From NCBI RefSeq assembly GCF_900638025.1, contig NZ_LR134481.1:868001-932000 (forward strand): DNA of 64,000 nucleotides. The letters are read 5' to 3'. The first letter of the stretch is position 1. Every line of letters starts with the position of its first letter. The position numbers and the translations under genes were made by a program. Positions 2,748 through 8,776 of the stretch are shown here, piece after piece. The stretch comes from Haemophilus parainfluenzae (GTDB lineage: Bacteria; Pseudomonadota; Gammaproteobacteria; Enterobacterales; Pasteurellaceae). A model generated the notes under the pieces. The model did not search any database. It was given only the letters and a program-made list of their open reading frames with translations, and had not been told where the DNA came from.

Positions 2748-3212
2748 TTACTTTAAATTTTTGTCAATTTGTCGTTGTAAAAGTGCGGTGGATTTCTTCA
2801 GAAGTTTTTGCCCGTCACTTTCGTTGATACCTAACCATGGGCGCGCTGGAATTTTAACTTTACGACCACGCCCGGCGTTTCCACCGAATTGATGTAGGCG
2901 CGCATATTTCGCGTCACTACCAAACTCAACATGGTCGTTGTCGTAATTATATGCGGTTCGGTCTGATAGGTAACCATCTTGGCGTAAAATCTTTGTGCTT
3001 TTACCGCGTTTCATTTTTAACGCTTTCGTGCGGGGCGATAAAGCTTGCCAGCGATTACCTTTTGGATCAATCTCTGCTTTAAAGCGGGCATCATGAATTT
3101 TTTTCAATGTTTCGCCCAGCAAACCATACAACTGACGTGGCTTTTCTAATTGATTTGCAATGCTTGTCAATTTCCGAATGGCTTGATTATCGTTAATGGT
3201 AATCTTTAACAT
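2748..3212 (-). CDS. Mu gpG-like virion morphogenesis protein
   Basis: A 154-residue basic protein matching the phage virion morphogenesis family (gpG of Mu, gpS of P2). Family traits seen: an N-terminal helix region, DPKGNRWQALSPRTK around residues 49-63, a central SDRTAYNYDNDHVEFGSDAKYARLHQFGG segment (about 82-110) and PARPWLGI (about 122-129). In Mu gpG acts in tail or head-tail completion. The ribosome site is weak (AAGAG). The 218-base stretch downstream (2530-2747) before the protease gene is AT-rich with TTTAAA repeats and no gene. Confidence 0.85.
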   Translation of the reverse strand: MLKITINDNQAIRKLTSIANQLEKPRQLYGLLGETLKKIHDARFKAEIDPKGNRWQALSPRTKALKMKRGKSTKILRQDGYLSDRTAYNYDNDHVEFGSDAKYARLHQFGGNAGRGRKVKIPARPWLGINESDGQKLLKKSTALLQRQIDKNLK

Positions 3213-3221
3213 AATTTTCTC

Positions 3222-3250
3222 TTGATAAAAATAATGCCTGGGCGTATAGT
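3222..3250 (+). promoter_or_regulatory. Strong sigma-70-type promoter facing the cloverleaf RNA
   Basis: TTGATA (3222-3227), a 17-base spacer, and TATAGT (3245-3250). Expected start is about 3257, the first base of the cloverleaf's core closing stem. It points opposite to the late operon. Confidence 0.6.
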
Positions 3251-3253
3251 GAA

Positions 3254-3335
3254 ATTGCGGTGGGGGTTTCCTACTGGAAAGGTTGCTTGGCGAAAGCCCG
3301 CATTATCCTGTTCGAATCAGGCGAGCCACCGCAAT
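3254..3335 (+). ncRNA. Candidate tRNA-like cloverleaf RNA in F-G gap
   Basis: A perfect 10-base inverted repeat, ATTGCGGTGG (3254-3263) with CCACCGCAAT (3326-3335), encloses three further hairpins in tRNA order. Arm 1 is TTTCC-TACT-GGAAA (3267-3280). Arm 2 is TGC/GCA plus GGC-GAAA-GCC (3284-3302), a GNRA tetraloop instead of an anticodon loop. Arm 3 is CCTG-TTCGAAT-CAGG (3307-3321), whose GTTCGAATC matches the universal T-arm loop of tRNAs. It is not a standard tRNA: no 7-base anticodon loop, three extra bases before the acceptor 3' strand, no encoded CCA. It exactly fills the space between the G start and F stop. No terminator follows, so a processed end is likely. Alternatively it is an mRNA element of the late transcript. 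Confidence 0.5.
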
Positions 3336-3337
3336 AA

Positions 3338-4594
3338 TTACAACTCTCCATATAGCACTTCAAAACGTCCTAACGCACTTAAATCTTCTAGCCGACTTGC
3401 TGTTCTAACCATGTTTAATTTGTGTGGTAGTTTCTTGCCGCTCAACGCGTCTTTTAGCTTAATTTCATAGTCCATTTTAACTGCCACTTTGCCTTGTTCG
3501 GTTTCATAGACGAATAACAGGGTCGGTTGTTTTTGTTGGCTGTCCAATAAAATCGCTTTCGGGTGGCGCAGTTTTTCCGGTAACTGTTCCCAAAATTCTA
3601 CCGGCAAGCTGATGCCTTTTGCTTGTTTGGTATCGCGTAATGCATGCAGCACATCTTCATCACGCACGGCGATTACCGCACTCTGCGGGGCTTTTTCTAA
3701 ATAGTCGAGTTTAGTTAATACCGGTTCAGGAATTGCCCCCACATACTTCATATTGCCACGTGCGACTTTTTGCTGGCTGACTGTATCAACCATTTCTTTC
3801 ATCGCGCCGTTTAATAACACCATGGCTTTTGGGTTCTTCAATACGTCATCAATTAACAGGCTCGCTAAATGCGGCTCCGCGTTTGTCATTTTTTGCAATA
3901 ACAGCTTGTCCACGTCCACATCGCGGGATTGGGTGAGGCGTTCAAAGTTATACGGCGCAAAACCCACATCATAACCTTTTGGCACACGCACCGTGCGAGG
4001 ATTACCGGAACGCACGCCCACCAGTTTTTCTTCCCATTCGATTTCAGGTGATTGGCTGACGGTTTTACCCATTTCGGCTAAATCGTCTTCATCATGCGCT
4101 GATACAGTGCAGTGGCAACCGTACGCTTTGATTGGGTAGTAATAGCGCCAAAACGGATCTGTGGCCGGTAGAATTGTGCCGTCTAACGCGATATGCTCCT
4201 CGCGTGGATATTCATTATCATGGTGGTGATATTCCCAATAAGGCAATACATCGACCAAATCCAAATGCTGTGCCAAGCGCCCACGGTTATATGCGCCATA
4301 AACGTTGGTGTCGTAAATAATCCGTGTGCGCCAGTTTCGCCCGCCGTTATATTGCCAGCCGGTATTTGCCACGATTTCATCAAAACGCTTGCGAAATCCC
4401 TCTAAGGTTTCACCATTTGCAATGGCATCGTCTACTGCTTCGCGAAATGCGGTCAACACTTCATTACGGTTTGCGCCGGCCACCATAAAAAAGTAGTCGT
4501 GTTCTTCACCCAGCACGTCTAAATAGCTATTAGTAGGCAAATTGAGTTTCTTCTCAAAATATTTGACCTGCTCTTCAAAAGTGAATTTACTCAT
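3338..4594 (-). CDS. Mu gpF-like minor head / head morphogenesis protein
   Basis: I use the ATG at 4594 (MSKFTFEEQVKYF), one base past the portal stop; in-frame ATGs at 4609 and 4633 would overlap the portal gene. The 418-residue product carries the Phage_Mu_F domain in roughly residues 55-180: a conserved Trp/His/Asp pattern ending in LDGTILPATDPFW and YGCHCTVSAHDEDDL, typical of SPP1 gp7/Mu F minor head proteins. These are few per virion and help procapsid assembly and DNA delivery. It lies between portal and G in standard Mu order. Confidence 0.88.
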   Translation of the reverse strand: MSKFTFEEQVKYFEKKLNLPTNSYLDVLGEEHDYFFMVAGANRNEVLTAFREAVDDAIANGETLEGFRKRFDEIVANTGWQYNGGRNWRTRIIYDTNVYGAYNRGRLAQHLDLVDVLPYWEYHHHDNEYPREEHIALDGTILPATDPFWRYYYPIKAYGCHCTVSAHDEDDLAEMGKTVSQSPEIEWEEKLVGVRSGNPRTVRVPKGYDVGFAPYNFERLTQSRDVDVDKLLLQKMTNAEPHLASLLIDDVLKNPKAMVLLNGAMKEMVDTVSQQKVARGNMKYVGAIPEPVLTKLDYLEKAPQSAVIAVRDEDVLHALRDTKQAKGISLPVEFWEQLPEKLRHPKAILLDSQQKQPTLLFVYETEQGKVAVKMDYEIKLKDALSGKKLPHKLNMVRTASRLEDLSALGRFEVLYGEL

Positions 4595-4595
4595 T

Positions 4596-6023
4596 TTATT
4601 TACGCTCATCTTCAACGGATTGACGGCCAGCAAAGTGTGCTGTTGTTGATGCCCACGCCATCACCTTGCCATATTCTGCAAAGCTCAACTCAGGGATCAA
4701 ACTGTCTAATTGGTTGCGAAAATCTTCCAGGCTTTCTGCTTGTGATAGCTTATCCTGGATGGTTTGCAGCCATTCTTCCACAAAGGGTTCACCTTCTACT
4801 TCTAGCTGCTCCCCAATGGTTTCCACGATAGTTTTAGGAATCGCCTCGGCGAAATCGGCCGTATTTTTGGCCGCACTTTTTTCAGGTGCGGAAACTACAA
4901 TATCGCCTTCTTCAAACCCATAGGTTCGCATGATGTATTGCTCGGTGAACTGGACGCCTAATCCCGCCAATAATCCGTCACGCTCGGCTTGTAATTTATC
5001 AATGCTTTCCTGTTCGTAAAGCTCAAATGTCGGCAGCGTGTCCACGTGGAAATTTAACTCACAAATCCAGGCTAATAATTGGTTAAATACGCCTTCAACC
5101 ATGCTGGCATCATCATCGCGAATATCGCGGGTCACTTCTAAGCCTGCCGTTGCACTTGCACGATTTGCTTCGGCTTCTGTGGTTTGATTTTGCCCCAATA
5201 ACGCGATGGCAATTTCTGATTTACAGTAGCGCAAGAAATCATCAAACACTTGTGATGAACCGCCTTTACTTCCACTTTCAAGCATATCAATAGAGCTGTC
5301 GTCCGGGATAGCCGCCACGGCTGTGCCGAGCATTTTTTCCATGCTATCTAACAACTCATCAATTTCATGGGCGTTAGCGTTTCGTGGGTATTTACCTACC
5401 AACCACGGCGAGCCGTATTTTTCAGCAAACTCTAGCCAAAACTTGAACCCGCCTTTCTTAAAAGTGGCCGCCCAAAAACACATCGCCAGGTCGGCGCGAC
5501 CGTATGGGTTCATGTAGTCGGCTTGTTGGGTGGCGAGTAAAAATTTCTTTTCCGGCACAATGCCGCCATTGCGGTTCTCTTTCGTGCGCAGCATTAAACG
5601 GTTTTCTTCATCAAATACAAACCACTCTTGTGGTTTTCCGACTATTTCAGTTGGGAGTAATAATCCGTTCTCACTTGCCCACATTACCTCAAGTACCTGG
5701 TAACCGAACAGGGTGGCGTCTAAAATTTGATTGATGATTTGACTTACCGGTAAACGGTCAAAAAGAGAGGCCAGGATTTCATCTGTTTTTTCATTCCCGG
5801 TTGGGGTAATGCGCCACTCTAAACCTTTAATAGCGGCTTTACGGCGGCGAACACAACCGCCCACATGGCTATCTGACAAAATTTCGCGATAGACTGAAAT
5901 GTCGCGCCCCATTTTCTTCAACACAGGATCAGGGTTTGGGAGATAGTGCATAAACGACCAAAAGTCGATAGCCTTCGCGCGGGTAGCGATGACGCCGATT
6001 AAATCTTGTTTTTTTGTTGTCAT
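4596..6023 (-). CDS. Portal protein (Mu gp29-like, DUF935)
   Basis: A 475-residue protein of the DUF935 portal family: MHYLPNPDPVLKKMGRDISVYREI near the N-terminus, RRRKAAIKGLEWRITP (about 59-74), LFGYQVLEVMW (about 104-114), and FGLEFAEKYGSPWLVG-like wing residues mid-protein. The dodecameric portal forms the DNA entry vertex of the head and docks the terminase. It starts two bases after the terminase stop, indicating coupled translation in the packaging block. Confidence 0.9.
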   Translation of the reverse strand: MTTKKQDLIGVIATRAKAIDFWSFMHYLPNPDPVLKKMGRDISVYREILSDSHVGGCVRRRKAAIKGLEWRITPTGNEKTDEILASLFDRLPVSQIINQILDATLFGYQVLEVMWASENGLLLPTEIVGKPQEWFVFDEENRLMLRTKENRNGGIVPEKKFLLATQQADYMNPYGRADLAMCFWAATFKKGGFKFWLEFAEKYGSPWLVGKYPRNANAHEIDELLDSMEKMLGTAVAAIPDDSSIDMLESGSKGGSSQVFDDFLRYCKSEIAIALLGQNQTTEAEANRASATAGLEVTRDIRDDDASMVEGVFNQLLAWICELNFHVDTLPTFELYEQESIDKLQAERDGLLAGLGVQFTEQYIMRTYGFEEGDIVVSAPEKSAAKNTADFAEAIPKTIVETIGEQLEVEGEPFVEEWLQTIQDKLSQAESLEDFRNQLDSLIPELSFAEYGKVMAWASTTAHFAGRQSVEDERK

Positions 6024-8204: not shown

Positions 8205-8531
8205 TTACCCCTTAACGCGCTCTTCAATGAGCAATGCGACTTGATGGCTTAGCGTGGAAAGGCGTGCATTGGTGGTGTTGGTATCGCCCTTGATTTCGGT
8301 CATTAAAATACGCAATGTGGCCAAATCTTCTTTTGTCGGCAAGTGTTCGAGCGTGTCTTCCACTTTGGTTAAGCGTTGTTCCACTTCATCAATATTCTTG
8401 CGGATTTCGTCAATCTCACTGCGTTTTGGGTATTTGCTGTCCATAGATAACTTCATGCCAGCCCATACCGACCCCATCACCGTGGCAACTAAGCCCCAGT
8501 GTTTTTGGATAAATTCCAGTAAATCCATCAT
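8205..8531 (-). CDS. Mu gp25-like membrane-anchored coiled-coil protein (DUF2730)
   Basis: A 108-residue DUF2730 protein. An N-terminal membrane segment (about residues 11-28, HWGLVATVMGSVWAGMKL) is followed by a long coiled coil (about 38-105). Function in Mu is not established. It starts at ATGATG with a GAGG site, overlapping the zinc-finger gene stop by ATGA. A 25-codon reading frame at 8745-8822 has a similar N-terminus, suggesting a duplicated membrane anchor. Confidence 0.78.
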   Translation of the reverse strand: MMDLLEFIQKHWGLVATVMGSVWAGMKLSMDSKYPKRSEIDEIRKNIDEVEQRLTKVEDTLEHLPTKEDLATLRILMTEIKGDTNTTNARLSTLSHQVALLIEERVKG

Positions 8532-8776
8532 TTTTCCTCGACCCTTTCATTTTTATATTTTTTCTTAATCCACCGCACATGACATTTGGTACAACGCTTA
8601 CAATCTTCGACAAAGCGACGCTTTTCGGGAATTTTCCCTCCACAGTCAATACACCATTTCACTCGCATTACCGCGCGTTTTTCTTGATAATCGACTATGC
8701 GTTGTAATGCTTGTATTAGCTCTTCAGGCGTGGCTTCTTCCAATTTACTTTTCACTTTTAGCCCCGCCAATCGCAA
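8528..8776 (-). CDS. Zinc-finger protein, TraR/DksA-type C4, start unclear
   Basis: The frame encodes up to 82 residues with a C4 zinc finger: CIDCGGKIPEKRR then CKRCTKCH (about residues 42-66), the pattern of the DksA/TraR family common in Mu-like phages. DksA/TraR proteins bind RNA polymerase through its secondary channel. No ATG exists at the front: possible starts are TTG at 8776 or GTG at 8755, neither with a good ribosome site. A well-initiated frame at 8822 overlaps it and would fuse to it after a one-base change, so the true protein may be longer. Confidence 0.65.
   Translation of the reverse strand: MRLAGLKVKSKLEEATPEELIQALQRIVDYQEKRAVMRVKWCIDCGGKIPEKRRFVEDCKRCTKCHVRWIKKKYKNERVEEK

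Follow-up and report, generated by a model that had tools for sequence, protein, structure and literature searches.

An RNA gene that no tRNA or Rfam search recognizes lies in the late operon of a Mu-like phage in the window, the 64,000-nucleotide stretch at positions 868001-932000 of a 2.06-Mb Haemophilus parainfluenzae genome. We consider it almost certain that this copy of the family that we call R1 is a real gene, read from the plus strand between the head genes gpF and gpG. Sequence comparison across the family establishes its own predicted promoter, its conserved fold and its fixed place in the gpF-gpG gap. These features support the promoter-driven, plus-strand, tRNA-like and presumably non-decoding RNA that a preliminary description of the DNA had proposed.

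The RNA gene in the window

The late operon is encoded on the minus strand in the order of terminase, Portal_Mu, Phage_Mu_F and Phage_tail_S/gpG by Pfam. The right-hand late-operon neighbour of the RNA gene is a gpG-like virion morphogenesis gene (2748-3212, minus strand; PF05069, Phage_tail_S, E 8.6e-32). On the other side lies a gpF-like minor head gene, 3338-4633 on the minus strand in the list of open reading frames (PF04233, Phage_Mu_F, E 1.8e-15), with its aligned start probably at 4600; its stop codon is 2 nt from the outer stem of the RNA. On the plus strand, the promoter described earlier is present, with the -35 hexamer TTGATA at 3222-3227 and the -10 hexamer TATAGT 17 nt further on at 3245-3250. 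The RNA unit itself, assigned on its fold, its homologues and a covariance model, extends over 3254-3335 of the plus strand. The R1 model matches it at 3256-3333 with 85.3 bits, this copy (L001) being among the 57 sequences from which the model was built. Transcription is predicted to start at about 3254-3257, the base of the outer stem.

The 10-bp closing stem of the preliminary description is also in place. The 5' strand of this acceptor-like outer stem, ATTGCGGTGG at 3254-3263, pairs with the 3' strand, CCACCGCAAT at 3326-3335, which is followed by AATT and not by CCA. Inside the stem, alignments A1 and A3 place a 3-nt insertion, GGG at 3264-3266, that is absent from canonical tRNA and separates the outer stem from the U8-equivalent at 3267. 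The U8-equivalent and the D-arm together take up 3267-3282, as judged from the alignment to tRNA-Gln and from near-invariant columns, the pieces of the D-arm being CC at 3270-3271, the loop TACTGGAAA at 3272-3280 and GG at 3281-3282. Where a tRNA has its anticodon arm, a hypervariable middle hairpin at 3285-3301 carries a GAAA loop (3292-3295). The T-arm, CCTG-TTCGAAT-CAGG at 3307-3321 with its loop at 3311-3317, is defined by the T-stem pair counts, and the linker CGAG at 3322-3325 (CRAR in the family), consisting of one T.C mismatch position and 3 extra nt, leads from the T-stem to the outer stem. The minimum-energy fold of the unit has the four-stem shape, in agreement with the three inner hairpins reported before, their loops at 3272-3275, 3292-3295 and 3311-3317 and the T-loop last.

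By itself, the window sequence is weak evidence for an RNA gene. The plus-strand fold has a z of -1.83, with 7 of 200 shuffles equally stable or more, and the minus-strand fold is, in relative terms, the more stable one (z = -3.05; 0 of 200 shuffles match it). Promoter-like sites in 2 kb number 5, compared with 3.8 expected. The RNA stands above chance because other phages have homologues in the same gap, because the stem covaries and because the promoter recurs. No terminator-like site was found on the plus strand between 3335 and 3676, and therefore the 3' end in the window phage is not set by the sequence.

The R1 family and the gpF-gpG gap

Two exact pattern scans of IMG/VR, yielding 70 and 93 stretches, gave 99 viral loci. 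R1 is present in 85 of them, in 91 copies, and the other 14 have no element. All 91 copies adjoin gpF and lie on the strand opposite to gpF/gpG; both genes were detected within 1.2 kb for 83 copies, and gpF only for 8. Six of the loci carry more than one copy, and tandem duplications are found, for example, in L010, L012, L047, L064 and L068. A pattern scan of GTDB genomes returned 60 stretches, 28 of which have the element by the pattern test; the remaining 32 were set aside, among them L141, a possible true copy truncated by the end of its contig. The GTDB copies are mostly from Pasteurellaceae, with others in Neisseria dentiae, N. bergeri, Eikenella, Cardiobacterium, Pelistega and Psychrobacter. 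L024 and L071, which share the T-arm, were rejected as genuine phage tRNA-Cys and tRNA-Tyr.

With the covariance model, 21 of 140 Pasteurellaceae genomes have a best match of at least 76 bits. At E <= 0.01 the number is 24; among these, the matches in G341 and G468 are tRNA-Gln, and the unexplained one in G401 (L206, 28 bits) is no tRNA. R1 was likewise detected in 8 of 83 Neisseriaceae genomes at E <= 1e-5, in Cardiobacterium, in 2 of 80 Psychrobacter genomes and in 1 of 268 genomes of the family of Pelistega, these last three being genomes already known to carry it. Among the 27 Pasteurellaceae genome matches that were made loci, 26 are near gpF, 25 of these also near gpG, and one (L211) is near neither.

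Among 394 genomes of the order, 7 had matches, those of G136 being two copies in tandem; the short matches in G215, G323 and G302 were taken as chance, that of G215 (L013, 24.4 bits) consisting of T-arm letters within an open reading frame. By blastn, the sole INPHARED phage with a homologue is Pasteurella phage AFS-2018a, where an unannotated copy lies between the 'head morphogenesis' and 'virion morphogenesis' genes on the opposite strand. Six Prevotella Lak matches at E 0.1 in the same search cover the AT-rich promoter side only and were discarded. The Pasteurella phage copy had no blastn match among PLSDB plasmids or complete E. coli genomes.

We also searched with gpF as the bait, using an alignment (A2) of 7 rows, six from R1-bearing phages and the seventh from B3, and kept the best 79 of 563 matches by similarity. 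Within these 79, gpF is at least 56% identical to that of the window in 25 loci, 22 of which carry R1 above 80 bits, while the other three have a different tRNA-like RNA in the gap: the RNA that we call RNA-B in L425 and L427, and a remote R1 relative in L433. R1 is further found at 82-83 bits in three Cardiobacterium-type loci of the 79 (gpF 44-45%) and at 51.5 bits in L446 (gpF 34%); the remaining 50 of the best 79 have no R1 match at E <= 1.

Promoters were called upstream of the element at a score of at least 9 of 12. By this consensus match, a sigma-70-like promoter equivalent to that of the window precedes 69 of 88 distinct elements, compared with 4.7 in letter shuffles, although the 88 elements are related and hence do not represent 88 independent events. 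In 40 of these 69 promoters, 5-7 nt separate the end of the -10 hexamer from the stem, the most frequent spacing. Second tandem copies are among the 19 elements without a promoter by the rule. A T-tail directly follows the outer stem in 5 of the 88 elements, and the Cardiobacterium copy in L097 has a GC hairpin and seven Ts just downstream.

The preliminary description had looked to conserved promoters and to compensatory changes in all four stems as support for a plus-strand RNA. The former were found as just described, and the latter in part. In the 57 distinct sequences of A1, the outer stem is 93.0% paired, and all 8 modelled pairs have changes on both sides. Its covariation score is 0.476, compared with 0.121 in shuffles (0 of 500 reach it) and 0.04-0.12 in slid controls. 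Across R1 elements, its length is mostly 6-16 bp and its sequence is free. The middle arm also exhibits compensatory changes, with 78-82% of cells paired (82.0% in the 57-sequence alignment). The T-stem is invariant in A1, in part because most rows were fetched by the T-arm pattern; with the remote members L216, L220, L446 and L520 added (A3, 23 sequences), it is 100% paired and 3 of its 4 pairs have changed on both sides. In contrast, the first stem, TTTCC/GGAAA, has no compensatory change in either alignment and is broken in several subfamilies, even though the proposed hairpin and its loop are present in the window. This hairpin pairs in 87.0% of cells and the D-stem in 70.3%; the D-stem has some compensatory changes in 2 of its 4 pairs, but pair 14-28 fails to form in 19 of 22 sequences. 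The pair counts are thus split, and on account of the tRNA alignment we prefer to read the region as a putative tRNA D-arm, CC-(WACTGGAAA)-GG.

The GAAA middle loop, another element of the preliminary description, is present in the window but is no feature of the family, in which the middle hairpin is hypervariable. Among 45 distinct middle arms, closures of the GNRA type number 13 on the plus strand and 3 on the minus strand, and UUCG closures 2 and 0, counts which are in favour of the plus strand. T-arm motifs are antisense in 79 of 110 distinct gaps and sense in none, most of these gaps having been fetched by the motif. The T-loop TTCRAAY, closed by G53-C61, is near-invariant in both the 57 sequences, where the rows are largely motif-selected, and the 23 sequences. 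The columns equivalent to U8, A14, G18, G19 and A21 are invariant or at least 90% conserved.

Other RNAs occupy the same gap. RNA-B, a second tRNA-like RNA, lies antisense at 3776-3975 in L425 and L427 behind an R1-like promoter, and in Psychrobacter (L217) at about 8500-8640, adjoining an R1 copy. Many phage tRNA-Leu genes have exactly its T-arm, GTGGG-TTCRARY-CCCAC. It may also form a pseudoknot, GGGAACG/CGTTCCC, which changes to GGGAGCG/CGCTCCC. A 185-nt RNA-B query matched 12 of 140 Pasteurellaceae genomes, where the matches are the promoter common to R1. Separately, a sub-threshold 17-nt tmRNA match was seen in the RNA-B of L425. The remote R1 relative, at L433:3781-3852 (24.8 bits) and L520:1414-1485 (minus strand), is called a tRNA with the anticodon tta by ARAGORN and stands behind an R1-type promoter; this anticodon would read the stop codon UAA. 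The gap of L101, a contig of the same type as L144 from Cardiobacterium valvarum, contains three RNAs, R1 being flanked by two more with the T-arms GGTGG-TTCGAAT-CCGCC and GCAGG-TTCGAAT-CCTGC.

After deduplication, gaps without R1 in distant Mu-like phages have TATAAT-like hexamers near gpG, 14 of 28 antisense and 5 sense, compared with 4.7 in shuffles. Intrinsic terminators are antisense in 9 of 23 such gaps and sense in 0, with 1.0 in shuffles. IMG/VR scans of two conserved gap sequences found CTACTGCACAGTATCCGA in 15 stretches and the B3-type in 6, with gpF on the opposite strand in 21 of 21 and gpG likewise in 20. In L528-L541 and L478, a short RNA-like unit has a CTACTGCACAGTATCCGA core, a UUCG or GNRA hairpin and a -10-like hexamer, and in most cases a GC hairpin with a T-run. 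The B3-type antisense unit stands behind TATAGT or TATAAT in the gap of phage B3 (L177, after 2730) and in L542-L547; the B3 gap is 123 nt long, and ORF34 (99 bp) is annotated on its other strand. The two genes abut or lie within 2 nt of each other in MP48 (D3112-like), H72, Bhz63, Ps60 and PhiR68_1, and Mu has no room at the gpG side, the side that was inspected. In longer gaps (for example L060, L188 and L168), small ORFs recur on both strands with the look of a general moron site and no common partner.

R1 copies also exist outside head operons, with no common neighbour gene. One Pelistega genome has three. Two of them adjoin an AlbA_2-like ORF together with genes resembling those of type I restriction, and the third is near a comM-like gene, these neighbours being identified by reading translations and sequence. 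The first two are situated within L215:7729-14190, between the AlbA_2/Schlafen-like ORF and putative HsdR, HsdS and HsdM genes. Two Psychrobacter genomes have one copy each, and in G756 a remote relative lies beside umuDC-like genes. Since no partner gene is shared outside the gap, the partner is probably supplied by the host.

Relation to tRNA and to other known RNAs

ARAGORN calls no tRNA or tmRNA in the window, and 4227 Rfam models at the gathering score give 0 matches in the window and ten related loci. With E up to 10, the RNA region has only four unrelated, chance-like Rfam matches, and even at this threshold the tRNA model RF00005 fails to find the window copy. Such an RNA, of which the preliminary description knew none in Mu-like phages, is absent from Rfam, and nothing on it was found in the literature we could search, which was mostly open-access with most subscription journals outside it. 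We describe R1, on the basis of these comparisons, as an apparent tRNA-like RNA, or phage small-RNA moron, with neither an Rfam family nor a tRNA call.

On 369 genomes of the class, the R1 model found the window copy, the relative in G756 (44.2 bits) and 32 weak matches of 25-31 bits. The 28 weak matches that were made loci, from 28 other genomes, are all tRNA-Gln(UUG) genes by ARAGORN; those of G677, G512, G558 and G696 are outside this set. In the genome of the window, where RF00005 lists 57 tRNAs, the model was run on 35 loci with 38 distinct tRNAs, and only tRNA-Gln was found at E < 0.01 (20.0 and 19.1 bits). The next matches have 13.8 bits (not a tRNA) and 13.3 bits (a tRNA called Trp). 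Besides the ordinary tRNA-Trp, this genome has a further tRNA of 74 nt at G000:C1:1617401-1617471 (L293) that is called Trp(cca). The idea that R1 derived from tRNA-Gln is weakened by plain alignment to the 38 tRNAs, which picks Gln only for the D-arm of Neisseria. What these alignments point to is that the R1 core is a tRNA elbow with no single isotype favoured, and very probably the RNA folds as such.

The resemblance to tRNA-Gln(UUG) comprises the equivalents of U8, A14, G18-G19 and A21, of which all but U8 lie in the D-arm region of R1 by the alignment, together with the TTCGAAT T-loop, a short variable loop (ATTA in R1 and ATTC in tRNA-Gln) and, for the Neisseria variant, a D-arm near that of tRNA-Gln. 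Unlike tRNA, however, R1 has an acceptor-like stem set off from the rest by a 3-nt insertion on each side (RGG before U8 and CRAR after the T-stem), and its T-stem has 4 bp instead of 5. The outer stem is neither fixed at 7 bp nor directly stacked, and the middle arm is hypervariable and often closed by a tetraloop, instead of having 5 bp with a 7-nt loop. CCA is also lacking, with AATT in the window and varied letters elsewhere, whereas the tRNA-Gln of the same genome ends in GCCA.

Another non-canonical tRNA-like RNA is tmRNA, from which R1 differs in having no tag reading frame; the ARAGORN tmRNA search was negative in the window and in the scanned loci. For most known phage regulatory sRNAs, such as the E. 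coli Pas sRNAs as a kind, the mode of action is base pairing, and they are not known to have a tRNA shape. R1 resembles these sRNAs and prophage morons in having its own promoter, sometimes a terminator, and a place between structural genes, but differs in its tRNA shape. Mu-gpT-DE RNA of Rfam is a structured RNA near Mu-like gpT genes. Both it and R1 are structured RNAs of Mu-like head operons, although R1 stands at another gene junction and has no Rfam match. Like phi29 pRNA, R1 is a small phage RNA, here beside portal and terminase genes, but it has no match to Rfam and is also found outside phage head operons.

Possible function and significance

The gene would be stand-alone, apart from the late mRNA, and driven by a sigma-70-like promoter of its own on the strand opposite to the operon. 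Transcription from the base of the outer stem would yield an RNA of about 80 nt, with a D-loop/T-loop corner, an acceptor-like stem offset by the 3-nt insertions and, where the anticodon arm would be, an expendable hairpin. Made in the lysogen, this RNA may present its elbow in trans to a host tRNA-binding factor. Candidates for this factor are an enzyme that processes or modifies tRNAs, the translation machinery, and a tRNA-targeting nuclease or toxin. Since the elbow is fixed while the charging and decoding ends are free, we infer that R1 is bound through the elbow. Action in trans is probable in our estimation. That R1 is specifically an elbow decoy is possible, though we favour this with reserve. 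The whole reading, that of a stand-alone prophage sRNA which mimics the tRNA elbow in trans as a decoy or competitive binder, is tentatively proposed from the comparisons above, at somewhat less than an even chance.

Such binding fits the pattern of conservation. In a base-pairing RNA one would expect a preserved seed, and in a cis element a preserved location and signals on the strand of the mRNA, whereas a relic would lose its pairing. The best-surviving alternative, itself unlikely, is a trans-acting base-pairing sRNA, for which the fold would be a stabilising scaffold and the middle loop or the linkers would pair with host or phage mRNAs. Known phage sRNAs are likewise stand-alone promoter-driven genes, the linkers GGTT and ATTAT are well conserved, and the middle loop varies between phages as if retargeted. 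The best-conserved letters, however, are those of the D-loop/T-loop core, which engage each other in a tRNA fold, and the middle loop has no conserved seed, many of the loops being closed tetraloops.

The consistent orientation of R1 against gpF/gpG (91 of 91 IMG/VR copies) could instead imply antisense control of the late operon, in which transcription that runs from this promoter through gpF in the lysogen would shut down late transcription or be shut down by it. The absence of a terminator between the window RNA and gpF is compatible with this, as are the other gap RNAs, which are antisense too. Such control does not need a tRNA fold, though, and terminators precede gpF in relatives and in unrelated occupants (T-tails in 5 of 88 R1 elements; 9 of 23 R1-less gaps). 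Moreover, R1 copies exist without gpF. In the window, where the RNA unit itself stops 2 nt short of the gpF stop codon, an antisense role is conceivable. Overall, we judge this explanation to be less probable still.

That R1 is a degenerate tRNA gene or a selfish repeat without present function could be argued from the remote members L433 and L520, which are near real tRNAs, from the tandem duplications and from the fact that not all Mu-like phages carry it. Decay, however, would hardly leave an outer stem that changes freely under strict pairing, and the core is near-constant where gpF is 33-45% identical to that of the window, with the promoter kept; a relic is therefore improbable.

Even less credible is a cis element of the minus-strand late mRNA, in which a series of hairpins would serve processing or would uncouple the translation of gpF from that of gpG. 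Mirror-image stems do form on the minus strand (z = -3.05), and the gap lies between cotranscribed genes. Yet the T-loop, the D-loop, the GNRA loops and the promoters fit the plus strand only, and the strand bias of the T-arm motifs noted above (79 of 110 gaps antisense and 0 sense, most of them motif-fetched) points the same way. The processing element of the late transcript suggested in the preliminary description is accordingly unlikely, the tRNA-like signatures being confined to the opposite strand. Its further suggestion of a packaging or virion RNA, prompted by the portal and terminase genes close to the gpF-gpG gap, is highly improbable, considering that the copies of Pelistega, Psychrobacter and G756 are not in phage head operons and that some phages have no room in the gap (MP48, H72, Ps60, Bhz63 and PhiR68_1; Mu likewise, as inspected at the gpG side).

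Returning to the elbow mimic, a wider proposal concerns the gap itself. Because different RNAs lie antisense in the same gap, the junction looks like an RNA cargo slot. In its full form, the proposal is that the gpF-gpG junction would be a slot dedicated to antisense small RNAs, with occupants exchangeable under a shared promoter (R1, RNA-B and the L433/L520 type, and elsewhere the B3-type and the 'CTACTGCACAGTATCC' type). The cargo in Pasteurellaceae, Neisseriaceae and Cardiobacterium would be non-decoding tRNA mimics that serve as decoys for tRNA-binding or tRNA-cutting host factors, defence nucleases included, and the fast change of the stem and the middle arm would reflect an arms race. 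We put this forward as a speculation that is rather doubtful in its entirety.

If the elbow reading is correct, temperate phages carry RNAs that imitate the common corner of tRNA while giving up charging and decoding, and prophages would have a new route onto host tRNA metabolism or tRNA-cutting defences. One short gene in one slot, with natural variants, would then be a simple handle on the host partner. A slot with different RNA families would also predict where gene finders miss further phage small RNAs.
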